39,606 bases of DNA, taken from positions 1-39,606 of IMG/VR virus record IMGVR_UViG_3300014501_000034, one strand, 5' to 3'. How positions within the stretch are numbered: the first letter of the stretch is position 1; each line of letters starts with the position of its first letter. Below are positions 2,476-36,380 of this stretch, piece after piece. The position numbers and the translations under genes were made by a program. The stretch comes from a virus. The notes below the pieces were generated by a model, which was not told the DNA's origin, made no database searches, and saw only the letters and a program-made list of their open reading frames with translations.

Positions 2476-3138
2476 ATGCCAGAGACTGCCGTAGCGGTTG
2501 CGCAAGAAGAGAACCTCGCGGATGGCGTTGCAGAGAAAGCAGAGCCTGAAGCCAAACCACAGATGACCCGCGAGCAGGCTGTTGAGTATGTGCTCGGGCA
2601 TCAGATCAAGTCATTCGAGCAGAATGACATCAAGCAGCGCATCCAAATTGCGTTGCGCAAGGGCATCATCACTGAGAATCCCAGCATCGAGTACACGCTG
2701 GAAGAACTGAAGGCGCTCGTGCCGCTGCCGCATGACCGCTGGAACTACATCAAGATCGCCAAGACTTCTCAGGGCTTGCTCGCTGTGCCGAAGCAGCGCG
2801 GTCGGCGCAAGAAGCACATGACCAAACACCAACAGGACATCAAGTCCACTTCGCTTTCCATCTTCAAGCAACTCTTCGCTGCGAAGGCAGAGCGCCTGAA
2901 GGCTGTCTGCAAGACAGAGGAAATCGAGTATCTCGGTGTCCCTGACTCTGCTCTCCCTGAACTGGGGACGCAAGCTGCAATGCAGGCGCTCACAGCAGTG
3001 AAGGACAAAGCGAAGCGCAAGCGTGACAAAGCGCGGCGCAGACAGAAATACTCCCGTGCTGTCAATGCCGGCATCTTCGGCATGAACAACCCCGGGGAGC
3101 GCAACTTCGTGGAGCATGGAGGACAATACGGATTATGA
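2476..3138 (+). CDS. Hypothetical basic protein, 220 aa
   Basis: Acidic, low-complexity N-terminus (residues 1-30), a helical central part, then two strongly basic blocks: RGRRKKHMTKHQQ near residues 109-121 and a KDKAKRKRDKARRRQK segment near 178-195. The charge pattern suggests nucleic acid binding, but no fold is recognised. Its stop overlaps the ATG of the beta-helix gene, so the two are probably co-translated. Confidence 0.65.
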   Translation: MPETAVAVAQEENLADGVAEKAEPEAKPQMTREQAVEYVLGHQIKSFEQNDIKQRIQIALRKGIITENPSIEYTLEELKALVPLPHDRWNYIKIAKTSQGLLAVPKQRGRRKKHMTKHQQDIKSTSLSIFKQLFAAKAERLKAVCKTEEIEYLGVPDSALPELGTQAAMQALTAVKDKAKRKRDKARRRQKYSRAVNAGIFGMNNPGERNFVEHGGQYGL

Positions 3139-3665
3139 TTGCTTTCTTGAGTCGTGAAGAGCAGCATCAACACGAAAACGGCGGCGGCTGGGTTGCTAAC
3201 ACCGCTAAGGTCGAAGCAACAGCTTTTGTCGGATGCGACGCTTGGGTGTACGGCAACGCTCGGGTGTACGGCAACGCTCTGGTGTACGGCAACGCTCGGG
3301 TGTACGGCAACGCTCGGGTGTACGGCGACGCTTGGGTGTTCGGCAATGCTCTGGTGTTCGGCAATGCTCTGGTGTACGGCAATGCTCAGGTGTACGGCAA
3401 CGCTCTGGTGTACGGCAACGCTCAAGTGTACGGCGACGCTCGGGTGTACGGCGACGCTTGGGAAATGTCGCCGCTTTACATACAAGGAACGGGACACGCA
3501 CTTACGAACTGCGCCCGCGGCAAAATAGCGATTGGATGTCAAGTTCACTCCTTTTCTGAATGGAAGAAGAAATACGAGCAAATCGGGAAAGCGTTCGGTT
3601 ACACGTCTGCACAGATCAAAGAGTACGGCAACCACATCGCTCACGCGATAAAGGTAGGTAAATGA
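3135..3665 (+). CDS. Left-handed beta-helix hexapeptide-repeat protein, 176 aa
   Basis: Residues about 35-110 consist of roughly twelve tandem hexapeptides of the form [VYGNA-R/L/Q/D], the pattern of a left-handed parallel beta-helix: a small aliphatic or aromatic residue every six. Short caps precede it (residues 1-34), and a helical C-terminal domain follows (about 125-176) with an aromatic/Lys-rich helix. Such proteins occur in many phages with unknown roles; binding or scaffolding is plausible, and no acyltransferase catalytic residues are evident. ATGA overlaps occur on both sides. Confidence 0.75.
   Translation: MIAFLSREEQHQHENGGGWVANTAKVEATAFVGCDAWVYGNARVYGNALVYGNARVYGNARVYGDAWVFGNALVFGNALVYGNAQVYGNALVYGNAQVYGDARVYGDAWEMSPLYIQGTGHALTNCARGKIAIGCQVHSFSEWKKKYEQIGKAFGYTSAQIKEYGNHIAHAIKVGK
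3238..3465 (+). repeat. Tandem 18-bp coding repeats
   Basis: About twelve 18-bp units of the form GTGTACGGCAACGCTCGG encode the hexapeptides of the beta-helix protein. Variation is limited to a few positions (CGG/CTG/CAG/TGG, AAC/GAC/AAT, TAC/TTC). There is no spacer, so this is not a CRISPR array. Such a tract can expand or contract by slippage without breaking the frame. Confidence 0.9.
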
Positions 3666-8092: not shown

Positions 8093-8542
8093 ATGCCACG
8101 GTCTCTAAGTGAACTCTTTCGCGGAATGCTCGGTGAGTTTGCGATCGTCGCGCTCATCATCTTCGGTCTGTACTGCTTAGCCGCTCGTGCAGACAGCACG
8201 GCAAGTCACAAGCAGCGCAGCAACACCTTCGGCGCAGCGATCTACCAAGACAACACCAATTCGTACCTCATGGGATCCGTGAAGTCGGCTGCTGTTGCGC
8301 GTGTAGGGAAAGACCGAACGATTCTCGTGCTGGAAGTCAGTCCGACCAACACGTACCAGATGTTTACTCAGCAGTTGCAACTTTGCGTCGGCATCGACGA
8401 GAACACCGCAAAGAAGCTGACGGACGCAATCGAGCAGCGCTCCGTAGTCGTGTTCACGTACAGCAGAGTCAGACATCTGCTGGACTGCAATGACTTGTAT
8501 CGCGTAGACAAGCTCGCCGAGTCTGCGCCGCTGCTCCAGTAA
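8093..8542 (+). CDS. Membrane-anchored periplasmic protein, 149 aa
   Basis: GTAGGAG precedes the ATG. Residues 13-31 are hydrophobic and end in CLAARA, which could be a transmembrane anchor or a signal peptide. The rest is soluble, mixed alpha/beta. It belongs to the lysis region by position. Its stop overlaps by 1 nt the start of the GIY-YIG remnant. Function unknown. Confidence 0.6.
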   Translation: MPRSLSELFRGMLGEFAIVALIIFGLYCLAARADSTASHKQRSNTFGAAIYQDNTNSYLMGSVKSAAVARVGKDRTILVLEVSPTNTYQMFTQQLQLCVGIDENTAKKLTDAIEQRSVVVFTYSRVRHLLDCNDLYRVDKLAESAPLLQ

Positions 8543-9065
8543 TGAAAATTTGGTTTATTTACGCCTACAAAAGAGCTGACACGGGCAGGTGTGTCTATGT
8601 CGGCAGTACTCTGAATCCGCACGATAGGCACAGGCTGCGGATTAAGAAGAGTCAGAACGGTGTCCCTTTCGACAGGGCGCTTGCTGCGGAGCCGGTCTGC
8701 TTTCTCTTACGAAATAGTCGAAGCGCTTTTCTGTCTTCCAAGTACTGTTGTGCTCAGAGAGAATCAGTGGATGGATGTGTTCGGCACTTTCCGCACAGAA
8801 GGTTGCTTCAATTTCCAGCGAGCGAATATCACAGTCTCGAAATATGAGTCTTGGTTAGCTGCACTGGGAGAACAGGCGCAAAAGTAAACCGCCAAAGAAA
8901 ACTCGTGAAGAAATAAATGCGGCTCTGCGTGCATCTTGGACTCCTGCTCGGAAAGTAGCACAACATGACAGCTTGCGCAGAGCGGGCGCAGCCGGCGGCA
9001 GAGCAGCTAAAGAGCATAATCTCGGCTGGTTCGCTCGGCGCAGTAAGGGCGTCACAGGATGCTGA
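8542..9065 (+). pseudogene. GIY-YIG homing endonuclease remnant with two frameshifts
   Basis: Frame 1 (8542 to about 8695) encodes the GIY-YIG core: FIYAYKRADTGRCVYVGST with the Y/G motif and HDRHRLR. The reading then continues one nucleotide later (about 8697-8870) with AFSYEIVEALFC and LRENQWMD, which holds the expected catalytic Glu. It shifts again by one nucleotide near 8868 into a frame running to TGA 9063-9065 with a basic, Gly/Ala-rich DNA-binding-like tail (KKTREEINAALRASW). Each shift requires skipping one base. No single frame gives a complete nuclease, so it is probably dead. The late-type promoter at 9051 lies in its last codons. Confidence 0.75.
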
Positions 9066-9071
9066 TATTAT
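9051..9071 (+). promoter_or_regulatory. GTCACAG-N8-TATTAT promoter element
   Basis: GTCACAG (9051-9057), 8 nt, TATTAT (9066-9071), an exact match to the element repeated before the structural genes. Here it precedes a structured leader and the endonuclease VII-like gene, outside the structural module. Confidence 0.7.
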
Positions 9072-9072
9072 A

Positions 9073-9170
9073 GGGGAAAGAGGAAAGCCTCTTTTCTAGC
9101 CCCAACGGGCATTGCGTTCTGGTGTAAGTCTGCACGCACTCCACTCCGGAGTTGAGGTACGCAATGCCCG
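9073..9170 (+). ncRNA. Structured 5' leader of endonuclease VII-like gene
   Basis: Two strong hairpins follow the promoter. The first pairs AAAGAGG (9077-9083) with CCTCTTT (9088-9094), closed by GGGG (9073-9076) and CCCC (9100-9103). The second pairs CGGGCATTGCGT (9106-9117) perfectly with its complement (9159-9170) around a 41-nt loop that contains the palindrome ACTCCGGAGT. It is not a recognisable tRNA or terminator, as there is no T-tract. A leader-mediated control of the downstream gene is the likely role; the class is unknown. Confidence 0.5.
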
Positions 9171-9183
9171 CCCCCTCGATTTT

Positions 9184-9516
9184 ATGGCTTATAATAGAGC
9201 TGGTTATTGTCGCTACTGTCATAGACCTTCTTCTGAGAAGCGCTGTCTCTCCTGTAGAGACAAGAAGAAAGATCGAGAGAAGGGCATCAGTCGTATCACC
9301 GGAATGATTTCGCGGTCTGCACTGCGCTTGTATAAAGGGCACCCTTGTCCTATATGTGAGCAGCCGATGGAGCAGCCAGTCCGAGATCATGACCATGATA
9401 CAATGATTTTTCGTGGCGTCATCTGCTTGCGTTGCAATTTTATGCTAGGATACATACAGAAAGTAAGCGCAAGAACGCTCGCACGCGCTGTTGAGTACTT
9501 GAACATGCCTCGTTGA
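9184..9516 (+). CDS. Endonuclease VII-family (HNH/treble-clef) nuclease, 110 aa
   Basis: N-terminal CRYC...CLSC is a zinc-finger-like pair. CPIC near residue 55 is followed by RDHDHDT...RGVICLRCNFMLG, the signature of recombination endonuclease VII-family nucleases, where His/Asp bind the metal and the Cys pairs bind zinc. Free-standing copies in phages are usually selfish mobile genes. The frame is open further upstream through the hairpin leader, but ATG 9184 keeps the complete domain and leaves the leader untranslated; no clear Shine-Dalgarno precedes it. Confidence 0.8.
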   Translation: MAYNRAGYCRYCHRPSSEKRCLSCRDKKKDREKGISRITGMISRSALRLYKGHPCPICEQPMEQPVRDHDHDTMIFRGVICLRCNFMLGYIQKVSARTLARAVEYLNMPR

Positions 9517-9529
9517 GGCGGGGGATCAA

Positions 9530-9817
9530 ATGGAAGGCAAGCTACAACTACGCATCGAGTACCTTGACGGAACATTCTATGCCGAAGAAATCGGCATGTC
9601 CTGGCCGGTGGGGCAAGAAGCCACAGCCTGTATGAAGCTGCTCGCTGACATCAAAGCGGTGGGCGGACTGCTTCAGGCGCCTGACAAGAATCGCATTACA
9701 CTGCGCTGCTGGAACAGCATGAAGTCGATCGACATTCAAGCTAGTGAGATTGTCACTGGAGACTTGGGCGATCTGGCGCGGCTGACTCCGCCTGCGAAGA
9801 CCGGCATTATTCTGTGA
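9530..9817 (+). CDS. Hypothetical protein, 95 aa
   Basis: GAGGCGGGGG precedes the ATG by a short distance. The protein is mixed alpha/beta with a central helix containing one Cys (EATACMKLLADIK). No known domain. It ends 28 nt before the next start. Confidence 0.6.
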   Translation: MEGKLQLRIEYLDGTFYAEEIGMSWPVGQEATACMKLLADIKAVGGLLQAPDKNRITLRCWNSMKSIDIQASEIVTGDLGDLARLTPPAKTGIIL

Positions 9818-9845
9818 ATCCGAGAACTGAACCCTGTTGCATTTT

Positions 9846-10163
9846 ATGCGCGGTGCTTCAATGAAGAAGCCCTCTTGGTTGCGTGTACCGGAGAGCCGGA
9901 CAGGACAATTTCTTTACGGTTTTGCAGATCAATTTTTATACTTCTTCGTGGTCTGCGCGAATTTCAGAGCAGTAGCGATTGGTCTGAAGTGTGCAACAGC
10001 GAGCACAGACGTGCTAATCACAGCACAAGCCTTTATCAGCAAGAAGTTCGCTATAGACAAAGAAGAGTGCCGAACATATTGGGTCGGGCTTGGAGAAACA
10101 ATTGGCGGCGGATTAGGAAGCATTCTGAGCATCTGGGTTACGCAACGAATCTTCGGGCGGTGA
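9846..10163 (+). CDS. Hypothetical protein with hydrophobic centre, 105 aa
   Basis: An aromatic and hydrophobic segment (residues about 19-40: FLYGFADQFLYFF) and a second near the C-terminus (GGGLGSILSIWV) suggest membrane association. The start is uncertain: ATG 9846 and ATG 9861 are both possible and neither has a clear ribosome binding site. Function unknown. Confidence 0.45.
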   Translation: MRGASMKKPSWLRVPESRTGQFLYGFADQFLYFFVVCANFRAVAIGLKCATASTDVLITAQAFISKKFAIDKEECRTYWVGLGETIGGGLGSILSIWVTQRIFGR

Positions 10164-10166
10164 GTC

Positions 10167-10598
10167 GTGAGAATCTGGGCATCAAGACAGCAATGGCAAG
10201 CCTTCCTTCGTCGCTGCAAAGCGGCGTACCCGAATGAGCACTGCGAAGCTGTCTGGGGAGAAGAGACCGTCGACAGCTTCCGCGTAATGCGGATGGTGCG
10301 GATGCGCCTGAACAAAGCAACGTCCAAGCTGATCGACTACGACGACATCGAAATCAAGCGCCAGAAGTGGGCAGCAGAGCAAGAGGGCTTGAAGTTCCTG
10401 GGGACTGTGCACACGCACCCCGGGAAAGACTTGGACTCGGCGCCATCGGCTTTCGACCACCACGCCTGCGCTGCTTGTGAGCGCATCATGGGGATCGTGA
10501 ACCTGTACAAAGCGCCTGACGGGCGCCGCTACATTGTGGAGACCAACTGGTGGTTCCCCCAGCGCAAGATCGAATTCGATTTGGATGACTCACTCTAA
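10167..10598 (+). CDS. JAMM/MPN-type metalloprotease-like protein, 143 aa
   Basis: Residues 82-97 read H-T-H-P...S-A-F-D, matching the zinc-binding HxH...SxxD motif of JAMM (MPN+) isopeptidases; a preceding strand (KFLGTV) and an upstream Glu complete the expected layout. Phage tail-tip assembly proteins carry this domain fused to NlpC/P60, but here it stands alone, far from the tail genes. Bacterial JAMM enzymes also act in ubiquitin-like conjugation systems and CBASS. The GTG start lies 3 nt after the previous stop. Substrate unknown. Confidence 0.75.
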   Translation: MRIWASRQQWQAFLRRCKAAYPNEHCEAVWGEETVDSFRVMRMVRMRLNKATSKLIDYDDIEIKRQKWAAEQEGLKFLGTVHTHPGKDLDSAPSAFDHHACAACERIMGIVNLYKAPDGRRYIVETNWWFPQRKIEFDLDDSL

Positions 10599-10606
10599 GG
10601 GGCACT

Positions 10607-18217: not shown

Positions 18218-18849
18218 TCCTATGATCTATGCGCAACTAAGTGGTTGCGCCTTTGTTCCTATGTTGCGCGTAGGATCCTATGCGCAAGCATCGCGCTGAG
18301 CGCTCGCACTGCCTGCTCAGTTTGTGACAGCGCTCTATAGTGACAGCGGCACCATGGAAGTCCGCCCGCGGCTCTGAATCTTGGGACCGACCTTTAGCAG
18401 AAGTGCTGCCTTTGGGACACGGTTTTTCCATTGACTCACAGCATGCCGACAGTGCAGTCCATCGCACCAGGCGAGTCCTATCGTTATGGCAGCCCTAATA
18501 GGACCGCGCTTCCCCAGCAAGTGCTCTGCTTTGTGCAGTGTAGCCGTGCTGCCCACCCACCTAAATAGGCACCCCTGCCTAGTATGTGACAGCCTCTATT
18601 AGGTAACCCCTGTGTACTCAGTGGTATACAGCCACAGCACTGTATGTGGTTGCCATGTAAGCAAGTGCGTTGTTATCATAGACATAGCACCAGGGGAGGG
18701 GTAGTGTCCTGTAAGTTGTTGAAAGGAAAAGACGGATATGGGGGTCCATTTTTGATTTTGAACAAGCCTAGGGTGCGTTATGCGCTCACACGCACACCCA
18801 AGCGAAATGGGCTTCAAAGGAGGATCGCCTCCTGACCTGACCCTCCTGC
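18218..18849. other. Non-coding region rich in CCTA/TAGG sites and palindromes
   Basis: No credible gene. The region holds the two GCGCAA palindromes, several CCTAnTAGG-like sites (around 18190, 18495, 18561 and 18594) and three copies of a GTGACAGC or CTGACAGC word (around 18203, 18324 and 18584). In a genome with hardly any gaps, this makes it a candidate replication origin or master control region. Both are inference. Confidence 0.45.
18231..18287. repeat. Tandem inverted repeats with GCGCAA arms
   Basis: GCGCAAC (18231-18237) / GTTGCGC (18244-18250) is a 7-bp stem with a 6-nt loop. It is followed by a 24-bp near-perfect palindrome TTGCGC-g-TAGGATCCTA-t-GCGCAA (18264-18287). The arms are shared between the two structures, so alternative pairings are possible. 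The first hairpin could also terminate the upstream transcript. Confidence 0.65.
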
Positions 18850-19335: not shown

Positions 19336-19367
19336 AGCCGCCCTAACCGGGGCGGCTTTCCTCTTTG
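19336..19367 (+). terminator. Rho-independent terminator
   Basis: AGCCGCCC (19336-19343) pairs with GGGCGGCT (19350-19357) around a 6-nt loop, followed by a pyrimidine tract TTCCTCTTT. It separates the left half from the structural module. Confidence 0.85.
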
Positions 19368-19372
19368 TACCC

Positions 19373-20602: not shown

Positions 20603-20678
20603 GCCGGTATAGCTCAGTGGTTAGAGCTACGGTTTTGTAAACCGTGGGTCGGTGGTTCGAATCCATCTGCCGGCTCCA
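20603..20678 (+). tRNA. tRNA-Thr (anticodon TGT)
   Basis: A complete cloverleaf: acceptor GCCGGTA / TGCCGGC, D-arm GCTC...GAGC, anticodon stem ACGGT/ACCGT with loop TTTGTAA giving anticodon TGT (reads ACA), T-arm with GGTTCGAATCC, and an encoded CCA end (20676-20678). It would supplement decoding of ACA threonine codons or resist host tRNA cleavage. It is the only tRNA found in the window. Confidence 0.95.
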
Positions 20679-23268: not shown

Positions 23269-25761
23269 ATGGCGAACCGATTTATTACGAAACTGTTCGA
23301 CAGCATTGAAAAGTATGGCGAGCGCAACCTGCCGCCCTCTGTCGAGCAGCGCACCAGTTTGGAGAATCCGCAGACACCGCTAAGCTATCCGGCTGAGTGG
23401 CTGTTGGACATCTTCAACGGCGGGCGCACCGACTCTGGTATCAGAGTCAGCGAAATGACAGCGCTCCAAGTGGGCACAGTGTTCGCTTGCGTAAACGTCA
23501 TCTCCGATGGTGTCTCTTCTCTGCCGCTGCATGTCTACCAGCGTGCCAAGATTTCTGGACGCGCCAGCAAGACGCTCGCGCTGGATTCACCGCTTTACAA
23601 GATCGTGCACACTGAGCCGAACCCCGAGATGACCAGCGCCGTATTCTTCAAGGTCGCCATGATCCATGCTCTACTCTGGGGCAACTCGTACTCGGAGATT
23701 GAGCGCGATGGCTCCGGACAGATATGCGGACTCTGGCCGCGCAATCCGGCACGCACTCGTCCAATCCGTTTGCTGAAGCCGATCATGTTCGAGGGAGACT
23801 TGCTGCCTGGCGGAACGCTGATGTACGAAACATCCGACCAGCTCATGGACTCCAGCAGCTATGTCGTTGACCAGAATCCAGAAATGATGAACGTCGGATT
23901 GCGGCGCCTAGTGCTCGCGGAAAACATGGTGCATGTCCCGGGGCTGTCTCTTGACGGTCGTCTTGGACAGAGCACAGTGTGGCTGGCGCGGCAGGCATTC
24001 GGTCTGGCACTCGCAACAGAGAAGTACGGCGCCAAGTTCTTTGGTAATGGCGCTCGCCCGTCTGGCATCTTGACCTTCCCGAACAAGATGGAAGACAAGC
24101 AGATCGACACGGCTCGGCGCTCGTGGGCTGAAGCACACGGCGGAGAGAATCAATTCCGCGTGGCAGTGCTCGAAGACGGTGTCAAGTATACCAAGATCCA
24201 AGCCACACCTGAAGAAGGGCAGATGCTCGAAACTCGGAAGTATGAGCGAGAGGAAATCTGCGCCATCTTCGGAGTGCCGGCACACATGGTCTGTGCTCAA
24301 GACAAGGGCGGCAAGTCAAACGTTGAGCAGTCCAGCATCGAGTTCGTTCTGTACTGCCTGCATCCCTGGCTCAATCGCTGGGAGCAGGAGATGGAGCGTA
24401 AGCTATTCTCGAAGATGGGGCGCTCTGCCAGCAAGTACTTCGCGAAGTTCGACACGCGCAAGCTGATGTACCCTGATGCGGCAGCCCGCGCCACCTTCTA
24501 CGCCTCCGGTAAGCAATGGGGATTCCTGAACACGAACATCATTCTGGAAATGGAAGACATCAACCCAGTTGAGGATCCTAATGTCGGTGAGAAATTCTGG
24601 ATGCCGATTAACATGCAAGATGCTGGCGATCCGCAGAAGCTCGGCGCTGAGGACCAGAATGCGCTGGACATCAAGAAAGCCACTGCTGTTGCTGAGCACG
24701 GAGCGCAGATGGCGCAGGACACTGCGAAGGTCACTACGAACTTGCAGATGAAGACTGCGCAGCAAGCGCACGAGCACACAATGGCTCAGACGAAAGTCAG
24801 CAACAGTCACGAGCTGGCAAAGCACAAGGCAGGGATTGCTCCTCCTGCGGCACCCGGAGCGCCGGGAGCACCTGGGGCGCCTGCTGCTGGGAACGATGCA
24901 GGGGACCAGCCTGGACAGGCGAAGCGCACGATCACAGACTTTGCAGAGATGCGCAGCGCCATGGAAACCTTGATGGAAGAGGGCTTCCACTTCCGCAAGT
25001 CAGAATATGATGACGAGCTGGACGGAATCACCTATACGTACCTGCATCCAGATCATCGGTCGGTACTGCTCACGTACAAGCAGGGACCTGTGGCTGTCGA
25101 TGACAGCAGCGTGGCTGCTGGCACGGGCAGAGACAACATCGGAGAACTGTTCGCGGGCGGAGACTCACGGGACAAAGGTCCTGAGGGAAAGACCGACTAC
25201 GTTCTGCGCCACGGCTGCACTAAAGCCAACGATGACGATGAGTACCGCGGCTGGGGAACTTACCCGCTCGACGCTGATGGAAAAGCTGAAGCGCTCGAAG
25301 CTGCCAAGTTCCTGCGCGACAAGGGTCTCATCAAGATCGTGACCAGCTCTCTTGTGCGGCATCAACAGACTGCACGGATCATTGCGAACGAGCTGGACAT
25401 TCCCGTCGAGACTGACGAGAACTTCCGCACGCTGAACGTTGGAGACTTCATGGGCAAGAAGCGGAAAGTCTATGGCGAGAAGCTGCAAGAGTACTTGGAC
25501 GATCCGAGCAAGGTGATCCCTGGCGGAGAGAGCGTGGACACGTTCATCAAGCGCAACGCTGGCGCCTTCGAGAAGGTGCGCTCTGACTCCCAGCAAACCC
25601 TGATCGTGACCAGCCGCAGCAACATCTTCGGCTTGATCGGTAAGGACACTGGAGAAGAGGTCAAGATCGCGAACCCTGGCGGAGTCTACACCCTGAACAA
25701 CGGGAACAAGCTGGCACAGGTGCTCGGCGCTGCTGACACTGATACGCTGGCGGGTTCATAG
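23269..25761 (+). CDS. Portal protein with C-terminal histidine-phosphatase-like domain, 830 aa
   Basis: Residues about 40-450 are an HK97-type portal (TALQVGTVFACVNVISDGVSSLP, then the long VWLARQAFGLALATEKYGAKFF region), the dodecameric ring through which DNA passes. A Gln/Ala-rich helix (about 470-515), an APGAPGAPGAP linker (about 525-540) and a small domain (about 550-610) follow. Residues 640-825 look like a histidine phosphatase: LRHG with His648, SSLVRHQQTARI and Glu754 in GGES. The usual second catalytic His is replaced (Ser782 in VTSRSN). Ordinary HK97 portals are about 420-450 aa, so half of this protein is added. Confidence 0.88.
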   Translation: MANRFITKLFDSIEKYGERNLPPSVEQRTSLENPQTPLSYPAEWLLDIFNGGRTDSGIRVSEMTALQVGTVFACVNVISDGVSSLPLHVYQRAKISGRASKTLALDSPLYKIVHTEPNPEMTSAVFFKVAMIHALLWGNSYSEIERDGSGQICGLWPRNPARTRPIRLLKPIMFEGDLLPGGTLMYETSDQLMDSSSYVVDQNPEMMNVGLRRLVLAENMVHVPGLSLDGRLGQSTVWLARQAFGLALATEKYGAKFFGNGARPSGILTFPNKMEDKQIDTARRSWAEAHGGENQFRVAVLEDGVKYTKIQATPEEGQMLETRKYEREEICAIFGVPAHMVCAQDKGGKSNVEQSSIEFVLYCLHPWLNRWEQEMERKLFSKMGRSASKYFAKFDTRKLMYPDAAARATFYASGKQWGFLNTNIILEMEDINPVEDPNVGEKFWMPINMQDAGDPQKLGAEDQNALDIKKATAVAEHGAQMAQDTAKVTTNLQMKTAQQAHEHTMAQTKVSNSHELAKHKAGIAPPAAPGAPGAPGAPAAGNDAGDQPGQAKRTITDFAEMRSAMETLMEEGFHFRKSEYDDELDGITYTYLHPDHRSVLLTYKQGPVAVDDSSVAAGTGRDNIGELFAGGDSRDKGPEGKTDYVLRHGCTKANDDDEYRGWGTYPLDADGKAEALEAAKFLRDKGLIKIVTSSLVRHQQTARIIANELDIPVETDENFRTLNVGDFMGKKRKVYGEKLQEYLDDPSKVIPGGESVDTFIKRNAGAFEKVRSDSQQTLIVTSRSNIFGLIGKDTGEEVKIANPGGVYTLNNGNKLAQVLGAADTDTLAGS

Positions 25762-25762
25762 C

Positions 25763-26119
25763 ATGCGAAACTTTTGTAAGAACAACCACAGCATGACCCC
25801 TGACAATACGTACTGGTATAAGGGTTATGCTCAGTGTAAAGAATGTCGGAAAGTCAACACAGCTAACGGTGATAAACTTTACGGCATCACACATTCAGAA
25901 AGAGAAGCATTGCTCGCCTCTCAAGGAGGCGCCTGCGCAATATGTGGGCGCACAGGTCTGAAGTGGGGTAAAGGCTTGAATGTCTGGCACACAGACCATG
26001 ACCACAAGAAGAAGGGAACACATCGCGGGATACTTTGCGGGCGCTGCAACGTTGTGCTTGGATGGGCAGAGCCACTGCTGAGTAAAATCATCGCTTACTT
26101 GAAAAAGTGGGAAGCATAA
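25763..26119 (+). CDS. Endonuclease VII-family nuclease, 118 aa
   Basis: Intact nuclease with CKECRK (zinc pair), CAICGRTG, WHTDHDHKKKGTHRGILCGRCNVVLG, the endonuclease VII signature with its DHDH metal site and Cys pairs. It starts 1 nt after the portal stop with no strong ribosome binding site and lies between head genes, a typical place for a free-standing homing gene. It is related to the copy at 9184-9516 but clearly diverged. Confidence 0.85.
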   Translation: MRNFCKNNHSMTPDNTYWYKGYAQCKECRKVNTANGDKLYGITHSEREALLASQGGACAICGRTGLKWGKGLNVWHTDHDHKKKGTHRGILCGRCNVVLGWAEPLLSKIIAYLKKWEA

Positions 26120-31512: not shown

Positions 31513-31622
31513 GTAAGCTGCCTCTGTCCGAGGGCTTCAAAGTTGTTCGGACGCCAACCCTGCTGTAGACAATCCAAACAACTTTTTCAGATCATGCCCT
31601 TTGTGGGCACAGGAGCATTACC

Positions 31623-33053: not shown

Positions 33054-33083
33054 CCGGCTGGCTGAGCAAGACCGAACCAACCA

Positions 33084-33122
33084 AGCGGGAGCAGAGCAAA
33101 CAAGCTGCTCCCGCTTTGCTTT
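33084..33122 (+). terminator. Rho-independent terminator after capsid gene 2
   Basis: AGCGGGAGCAG (33084-33094) pairs perfectly with CTGCTCCCGCT (33105-33115) around a 10-nt loop, followed by TTGCTTTG. It ends the capsid transcript. Confidence 0.85.
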
Positions 33123-34152: not shown

Positions 34153-34668
34153 TTATATGTGTGTCCAGCGCTTGCGCTGAACGATCTTGTAAGCAGTCTG
34201 ATAGTGAATGTTGTACTCTTGAGCGAGCGTCTCAAGTGCTGTGCCTTTGCTGTAGGAAGCACGGAGAGCGAGCACTTGCTCAGCAGTGAGCTTTGACATG
34301 GGATTTGTTCCTCCCTTGAAGTGAGAGTAGCAGCCATTGAGCGTCGCGTGTTCACGATTCTCTTTAGCTGTGACCCACTCAAGATTGCTATCTCGATTGT
34401 TCGTCTTGTCGCAGTCTTTGTGATTGACTTGCTCTTTGCTGTCCGGATTCGGAATGAATGCGCGAGCAACAAGAACGTGCGTTCTGTATTTAGAGACTTT
34501 GCCTGCTGAGCAAAGCGCGACGTTGAGATAGCCGTGACCGTCGTATTGCCCGAGAATACGGCCGGCTTTGCTCGCGCAGCATGTTGAAGAACGACGTACT
34601 CGGCCGTGATTCGAGACTTCGTAGTTTTGTTCGTGACCGATGACAGGTTTCCAGATTTCGAGTTCCAT
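34153..34668 (-). CDS. HNH homing endonuclease with NUMOD4, 171 aa
   Basis: The only minus-strand gene. Order: NUMOD4 (EIWKPVIGHEQNYEVS, residues 4-19, and GRVRR), an HNH_3 core (VNHKDCDKTNNRDSNLEWVTAKEN region, about residues 80-103) and a C-terminal helix-turn-helix (SKLTAEQVLALR, ETLAQEYNIHYQTAYKIV). It is an intact free-standing homing nuclease inserted between two connector genes. The start at 34668 lies 6 nt from its -10 box; the in-frame start at 34698 would be upstream of the transcript. Confidence 0.88.
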   Translation of the reverse strand: MELEIWKPVIGHEQNYEVSNHGRVRRSSTCCASKAGRILGQYDGHGYLNVALCSAGKVSKYRTHVLVARAFIPNPDSKEQVNHKDCDKTNNRDSNLEWVTAKENREHATLNGCYSHFKGGTNPMSKLTAEQVLALRASYSKGTALETLAQEYNIHYQTAYKIVQRKRWTHI

Positions 34669-34674
34669 AGCAAT

Positions 34675-34703
34675 ATGGTAACACGGAGAGGTTAACATGT
34701 CAA
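34675..34703 (-). promoter_or_regulatory. Minus-strand promoter for leaderless HNH gene
   Basis: Read on the minus strand: TTGACA (34703-34698), 17 nt, TACCAT (34680-34675), 6 nt, ATG (34668). It repeats the geometry of the promoters at 765-792 and 4840-4868. GTAAC and GTTAAC lie in its spacer, 8 nt apart, and may be a variant of the left-half operator. Confidence 0.6.
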
Positions 34704-35495: not shown

Positions 35496-36380
35496 ATGGG
35501 AGCAATCACCCAGAATAAGTTCACGGTCAACGCGCGTTTGCTTGCGCTGGAACAAGAGATGGTGGAACTGCGCAAGCAGTACGGACTCGTTCAGTTGCAG
35601 GCAGGTCCGCAAGGCGCAGCAGGACAAGCAGGACAGAAAGGCGACAAGGGAGACCCCGGAGTTGGACTGTCAGGACGTGACGGTCTCAACGGAGCAGATG
35701 GACAGCAAGGTCCGAAAGGGGACCGCGGAGACAAAGGTGATCGTGGAGAAAAGGGCGATCAGGGAGAGCGCGGCGCTGCTGGTCACAATGGCATCAAAGG
35801 GGACAAGGGAGATAACGGAGAACGGGGCGCAAAAGGCGATGACGGTCTGAGCATCAAAGGAGATGCTGGACAGCGCGGTGAAAAGGGTGATCGTGGAGAT
35901 GTCGGTCCTCAGGGAATGAGCATTATAGGACCACGCGGTGAGAAGGGTGATAAGGGTGATGTAGGAGCACCAGGACGCGATGGGGTCGATGGAAAGAACG
36001 GTGCTGATGGGAAAGATGGACGGCATGGGAAAGACTCTACCGTGCCAGGACCGAAGGGAGAGAACGGCTGGCACGGGAAAGACGGTGCAAAAGGAGAGCA
36101 AGGAGAGCAAGGAGAGCGCGGGTTACAAGGAGAGAAAGGTGATAAGGGCGAGCGCGGCGATGTCGGTCCTCAAGGTGCTAAGGGAGAGAAGGGCGACATT
36201 GCTGCTGTCACAGAGTCCGAGTTATTAGAGGCGGTGCAGAAGTTGCGCAGACGCCATGCAGCAATTCTTGCGAAGCTGGTGCATGAGCGAGAGTTGAATG
36301 ATTCAGTTCCGAATAGTGCACTGAAAGCGGCGCTAAATGCTGTTTTGAACAGGATAGAAAGAGCAGCCAATGTCAGCTAA
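35496..36380 (+). CDS. Collagen-like virion fibre protein, 294 aa
   Basis: A short coiled-coil start (residues 1-32) leads into about 190 residues of almost uninterrupted Gly-x-y triplets rich in [11 protein letters not shown], which form a trimeric collagen helix. A C-terminal helical part (about 235-294) probably trimerises or attaches. The sequence is strongly charged, typical of phage side or tail fibres. It begins 3 nt after the head-closure stop, overlaps the next fibre gene by 11 nt, and contains a promoter element near its end. Confidence 0.85.
36205..36225 (+). promoter_or_regulatory. GTCACAG-N8-TTATTA element inside collagen-like gene
   Basis: GTCACAG (36205-36211), 8 nt, TTATTA (36220-36225), 145 nt before the tail-spike gene. 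It encodes residues just after the collagen tract ends, so it may have been placed to drive the downstream gene. It is the least certain because it is entirely intragenic. Confidence 0.45.

Follow-up and report, generated by a model that had tools for sequence, protein, structure and literature searches.

The coming and going of nuclease genes is a usual pattern. It is described for T4 in PMC2988022, and the same account reports RNA structures lying over the ribosome site of I-TevI, I-TevII, I-TevIII, T4 segB and Aeh1 mobE, as well as a very stable hairpin located just before, and not over, the ribosome site of seg43(25) from Aeromonas phage 25. For proteins with an endonuclease VII motif, the criteria of the DHHRN family are set out in PMC6083498, where a C-terminal position of the motif is given for most of the endonuclease clade, as opposed to the resolvase clade. 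A folded phage leader is also described for putL, which is about 70 nt long and forms two stem-loops just downstream of PL (PMC9378689).

The locus considered here lies in a 39,606-nt stretch of viral DNA (the window). A promoter-like element, GTCACAG-N8-TATTAT, occupies positions 9051-9071 on the plus strand, with GTCACAG at 9051-9057 followed by 15 nt up to 9073 that include TATTAT at 9066-9071. Behind it is a 98-nt leader (9073-9170) containing two hairpins. The first (9073-9103, plus strand) consists of a 4-bp part, GGGG at 9073-9076 with CCCC at 9100-9103, and a 7-bp part, AAAGAGG at 9077-9083 with CCTCTTT at 9088-9094. The second is a perfect 12-bp stem, CGGGCATTGCGT at 9106-9117 with ACGCAATGCCCG at 9159-9170, with 41 nt between its arms; it closes a predicted three-way (Y-shaped) fold at 9106-9170 on the plus strand. 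The preliminary description had reported these pairings in a structured leader behind a promoter-like element, and had held that this is not a simple terminator. All three statements are borne out: the pairings are exact, the leader as a whole folds at about -47 kcal/mol versus a shuffled mean of -29 (z -5.83, with 0 of 200 shuffles as good), and no intrinsic-terminator-like site (GC-rich stem plus T-run) is listed at 9073-9170 on the plus strand.

The fold signal can be located more closely. The region 9104-9170 by itself reaches z -4.71 (0/300 shuffles), while both the stem interior at 9118-9158 (z -0.06, 127/300) and the first hairpin by itself (z -0.81, 62/300) are at chance level, and therefore the 12-bp stem is the carrier of the signal. 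For the 112-nt leader the value is z -3.56, with one of 300 shuffles as good, and the signal is diluted when the segment runs into coding sequence (9079-9220; z -2.01, 7/200). The inner arms of the three-way fold may be chance products, although the folding model assigns high pair probabilities to most of them. Perfect 12-bp inverted repeats with loops of 3-60 nt occur twice in the window versus a shuffle mean of 0.38, with none in 45 of 60 shuffles; the other one is found at 33083-33116, behind the capsid gene. Such a stem is thus not rare over the whole window, but within one given 112-nt leader it is unlikely, with a probability of about 0.001 by arithmetic from the shuffle mean. A further symmetrical element of the window is the near-perfect 24-bp palindrome TTGCGCGTAGGATCCTATGCGCAA at 18264-18287, possibly an operator.

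The ownership of this leader is indicated by a close relative, L023, which is part of a 21,158-bp virus record (IMGVR_UViG_3300050045_000022). Window positions 9099-9176 are 98.7% identical to L023, with the stem element identical over 73 of 73 nt, and 9517-10601 are 96.5% identical. The latter segment includes a phage gene of 95 amino acids (9530-9817, plus strand; gene 9530) that differs from its counterpart by one substitution in 288 bp. In L023, the stop codon of the upstream gene (9434-9436) is followed by the same promoter-like motif (L023:9440-9461), a few bases and the stem element. Further on come a short hairpin (CCCCTA/TAGGGG), a ribosome site rich in G and the ATG at 9573, with which the L023 counterpart of window gene 9530-9817 begins. 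This gene follows the leader in L023 and stands behind the nuclease gene in the window. At this place L023 has no endonuclease VII-like gene and no GIY-YIG-like frames (window 8542-8887), nor any counterpart of 8889-9065 or of the first hairpin, where it has only a few nucleotides. Taken together with coding sequence (L023:9463-9610), the leader of L023 is but marginally more stable than its shuffles (z -1.50, 14/200). Since L023 has the motif, the stem and gene 9530 without the nuclease genes, the element is best read as the phage's own 5' leader of gene 9530, beside which nuclease genes have been inserted, a reading to which we assign a probability of roughly 0.6. The earlier view of it as the leader of the endonuclease VII-like gene itself is not supported, as the same element occurs in L023 without that gene. 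More generally, the reading of a single genome can assign a leader to a selfish gene, and one close relative can reassign it to another gene.

The identity of the stem in the window and L023 says nothing on conservation or covariation, because the flanking sequence is of very recent common origin; with the only homologue of the stem identical over 73 nt, there are no variable pairs in which compensating changes could appear. The protein encoded by gene 9530 has no PHROG match at E 0.01 and no Pfam match at E 5, and its homologues are confined to the L023 record in viral contigs, with nothing in phages. Elsewhere among the relatives, window 3135-3665 and L024:13698-15349 encode a protein of short repeated VYGNA-like units, with many shifted repeat matches in the relative.

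According to the preferred reading, a promoter of the form GTCACA(G/C)-N8/9-TATTAT would drive gene 9530 and probably the genes behind it, and the stable stem would sit near the transcript start in the gene 9530 leader. An endonuclease VII-like homing gene would have been inserted behind the stem and a GIY-YIG-like gene before the promoter, and the endonuclease VII-like gene would now borrow its neighbour's promoter and leader. Two insertions around the leader are most likely, judged from the two genomes compared; the loss of the nuclease genes from L023 instead is still conceivable.

The inserted gene behind the stem (9184-9516, plus strand) is absent at this place in L023, a presence and absence between close relatives as expected of a free-standing homing gene. 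Its protein matches PF02945 (E 3.9e-12) at residues 44-107 of 110, so the motif is C-terminal, and both translation and alignment contain CPIC (CX2C), DHDH, FRG (R) and CLRCN (CX2CN). The protein thus shows the features of the F-CphI-like DHHRN family, namely CX2-4C, D-H-(x)-H, R, CX2C and N in a C-terminal motif, and gene 9184 is probably a free-standing homing endonuclease. Its relatives in annotated phages comprise 361 records, all below 60% identity (20 listed), whereas viral contigs contain none. On the other side of the leader, a GIY-YIG-like gene start with a broken frame, also absent in L023, is found at 8542-8847 (plus strand), continuing at 8660-8887 in a second frame. The first piece matches PF01541 below the cut-off (E 0.076, 13.8 bits versus 22.6, 27 of 78 profile positions), and the second gives only PF12025 at E 0.03, likewise below the cut-off, with no PHROG match and nothing in phages. 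A third-frame open stretch at 8889-9065 (plus strand), whose stop codon abuts TATTAT, is perhaps the tail of the same insert and has no Pfam match at E 5. The locus provides a with/without pair for a homing-type gene of the endonuclease VII motif in a tailed phage, in which the insertion preserves the promoter and the leader and would turn them to its own use.

Genes of this type are recurrent in the phage group. Six endonuclease VII-motif genes are found at different places in five of the seven records, and for five of them the corresponding place is empty in another record, the exception being G008/L016. The second such gene of the window lies at 25763-26119, and the corresponding empty place in L014 (8329-8376) has an 11-bp inverted repeat, TTGTCAACCTT/AAGGTTGACAA. 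Another is present at L023:3155-3655, inserted close to where the L023 counterpart of window gene 1480-1998 begins; in the window, its insertion site corresponds to 1547-1561. In L019, a gene at about 905-1269 on the opposite strand, whose place corresponds to window 19339-19368, lies just before the GTCACAG site and is bordered by a long perfect stem, AAAGCCCTTGCTTATCT. The window also has a homing-type gene of the HNH_3/NUMOD4 kind at 34153-34698 (minus strand), at a place where L014 shows a short uninterrupted spacer. The frame at window 14480-14824 matches PF07282 (E 2.3e-23), the TNB domain found at the C-terminus of Cas12f1/TnpB-like proteins; with only 114 amino acids, it is probably a fragment.

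The presence of two nuclease-like genes on the flanks of the stem could also suggest an element acting at the DNA level, a cruciform-prone site that is recognised by nucleases of the branched-DNA type and gathers their genes. The inverted repeat at the empty place in L014 fits this idea, as does the L019 insert, which stands at a terminator-like hairpin of the window. However, the empty counterparts of the L017 and L023 insertion sites have no such repeat as judged by eye, and hairpins are common between genes, which makes such a site improbable. A preference of endonuclease VII-like genes for inverted repeats was considered in this connection and is not pressed: repeats are seen by eye at three of five empty sites, all of them intergenic.

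The preliminary description had further offered the leader as the relic of an intron that carried the nuclease. A group I intron does occur in the phage group, at L017:6791-7065 (RF00028, 61.3 bits), immediately ahead of the L017 segment corresponding to window gene 23269-25761 from residue 50 onwards. At the leader, in contrast, the Rfam comparison proposed in that description gave no family for 8850-9350 even at E 10, introns included, and over the whole window at gathering score it returned just a tRNA at 20603-20675. There is no sign of an interrupted gene at this position, and the element is present there in L023 free of any nuclease gene. An intron relic, of group I or of another type, is hence scarcely credible.

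The case for a promoter rests on the longer motif. Bare GTCACAG occurs 13 times on the plus strand and seven times on the minus strand of the window, a strand bias too small to carry the case. GTCACA(G/C)-N8/9-TATTAT, scored as GTCACA(G/C), 8 or 9 bases and (A/C/T)AT(T/A)AT, is found seven times on the plus strand, never on the minus strand and never in 30 shuffles, a test that is partly circular since the longer motif was framed post hoc from GTCACAG sites. Four of the seven sites (27377, 33138, 34856 and 39124) have a start codon less than about 20 nt away, two (9051 and 31492) have long leaders behind them, and one (28561) lies within a gene, as does a looser site at 36207. The motif is also present in relatives. 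Three sites (27377, 33138 and 39124) stand just 10-12 nt 5' of an ATG, which argues for an early transcript start or a double use of the motif. The transcript start is predicted to lie just behind TATTAT or about seven bases further. No member of the phage RNA polymerase families was found in the seven records; 14 control genomes also gave none, so this result is uninformative on the polymerase. The major capsid gene of the window has a leader after the same motif (31513-31622), with a predicted pairing over its ribosome site; its fold has z -2.09 (10/300), or z -1.09 (29/200) when extended into the coding sequence as far as 31640. Should the promoter-like motif and its hairpins hold, they would provide a handle on transcription in this phage group.

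With respect to function, one rival reading is that a hairpin in the leader controls translation of the endonuclease VII-like gene, in the manner of the T4 homing endonucleases. The stem ends 13 nt before the ATG at 9184, and genes of the T4 type carry RNA structures at the ribosome site in the account of PMC2988022. However, the same stem occurs without the endonuclease VII-like gene, and no Shine-Dalgarno or other ribosome site is visible before 9184, so a mask would have nothing to cover. In the window, the start region has a modelled mean openness of 0.52-0.58 with the stem and 0.53 without it, and that of the gene 9530 start in L023 is 0.64 or 0.54 with the stem, depending on the start point, and 0.56 without it. 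Because the modelled openness is alike with and without the stem, a T4-type structure over the ribosome site is disfavoured, and this kind of control appears quite unlikely.

The unchanged modelled accessibility bears equally on the earlier suggestion of an RNA switch, which finds no Rfam family either. A ligand-binding riboswitch for gene 9530 would agree with the three-way fold and with the possibility, noted by eye, that the 3' flank of the stem, GCCCGCCCC, pairs with GGGGCGGG before the L023 start codon; moreover, the model re-pairs that region when the 5' arm is blocked. Against this, the stem form is predicted to be more stable than the blocked form (-56.3 versus -42.6 kcal/mol), the interior is no more structured than chance, and no homologue besides one identical copy came up in the sequences searched. 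A riboswitch is accordingly a poor candidate.

Processive antitermination of the HK022 put type, in which a fold of about 70 nt stays on the RNA polymerase and lets it pass terminators, fits the size of the element (65 nt) and its position behind a promoter, and in the window the leader forms two hairpins and lacks a T-tract. Yet the first hairpin is missing in L023, and the stem element is found at just one promoter among the sequences searched, which leaves a put-like role unlikely. For the stem in the gene 9530 leader, we tentatively propose that it forms a structure at the 5' end which either protects the mRNA against decay or influences the polymerase during elongation, a role that is plausible while still falling short of an even chance; it may also be a protein-binding or elongation element.

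Searches for further copies recovered two stems, identical to one another. The exact stem pattern was found in viral contigs in the L023 record only, and no diverged copy was detected in phages, in plasmids or, with patterns of either the stem or the loop, in viral contigs. One loop-pattern match in viral contigs, L042, was taken for a chance match (model E 0.54). A covariance model built from the two identical copies and run on 21 and then six sources returned, at E values under 0.54, nothing except the copies in the window and in L023/L024, and comparison at the DNA level with phages and plasmids produced either no match or short ones with E values between 2 and 8. Regarding the host, a terminase search of genome contigs returned one distant match (26%), and the capsid relatives in phages are all below 60% and come from many hosts.

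Hairpins of other sequence are present in other leaders of the group. Upstream of gene 19669, putatively the small terminase gene from its position, and of its homologues, GTCACA occurs in nine of ten records, giving five distinct leaders. Four of these types (window, L006, L017 and L021, but not L020) have a hairpin of at least 5 bp, differing in sequence, between GTCACA and a GGGG-rich ribosome site; 5 bp is reached by 12.3% of random 34-nt windows. The second hexamers in this group (TTATCT, CACCTT, TCCATT, CATAGC and TTAAGT) fit TATTAT poorly, and the homology of the L021 site is doubtful because it lies 58 nt before the gene versus 297-378 nt in the others. Of 20 promoters, hand-picked after setting aside intragenic sites and the majority of near-identical homologues, six have a hairpin that reaches 5 bp versus 2.5 expected, a weak excess (p about 0.03, post hoc binomial). 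The leaders at L018:16821-16888 and L032:6736-6808, which follow the same motif and by eye have look-alike hairpins with changed letters, show no gain over shuffles in folding energy (z -0.91 and 0.62). These observations would agree with hairpins close to the 5' end being customary in these transcripts, and the short hairpins upstream of gene 19669 give a hint of the role proposed above for the stem. A wider proposal would be that transcripts from GTCACA(G/C)-N8/9-TATTAT often carry an early hairpin and that the Y-shaped stem is its largest form, acting in cis on the polymerase (put-like) or on mRNA life and serving as a landing place for homing nucleases; we consider this proposal, taken as a whole, a long shot.

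Compared with the known systems, the stem resembles HK022 putRNA in being a folded RNA of about 70 nt behind a phage promoter, a comparison of size and place, and it differs from it in occurring at one promoter only. Like the 5'-terminal stem-loops that stabilise the bacterial mRNAs of ompA and papA (titles cited in PMC3997798), it is predicted to form a stable stem close to the first bases of the transcript and to leave the ribosome site unmasked. The putative inserted nuclease differs from F-CphI in that no intron was found beside gene 9184; it agrees with F-CphI, of the DHHRN family, in the C-terminal endonuclease VII motif with CX2C, DHDH, R and CX2CN, as the motif is given in PMC6083498. 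In contrast to the T4-type free-standing homing endonucleases, as these are described in PMC2988022, the same structured leader here also exists in a genome that lacks the insert, and its fold covers no ribosome site. In T4, by the same account, some promoters of downstream genes lie inside the inserted gene, while here the promoter abuts the end of the insert. What the two share is insertion between phage genes and use of a neighbour's promoter, and within that account the nearest look-alike of the present arrangement is seg43(25), with its stable hairpin just before the ribosome site.
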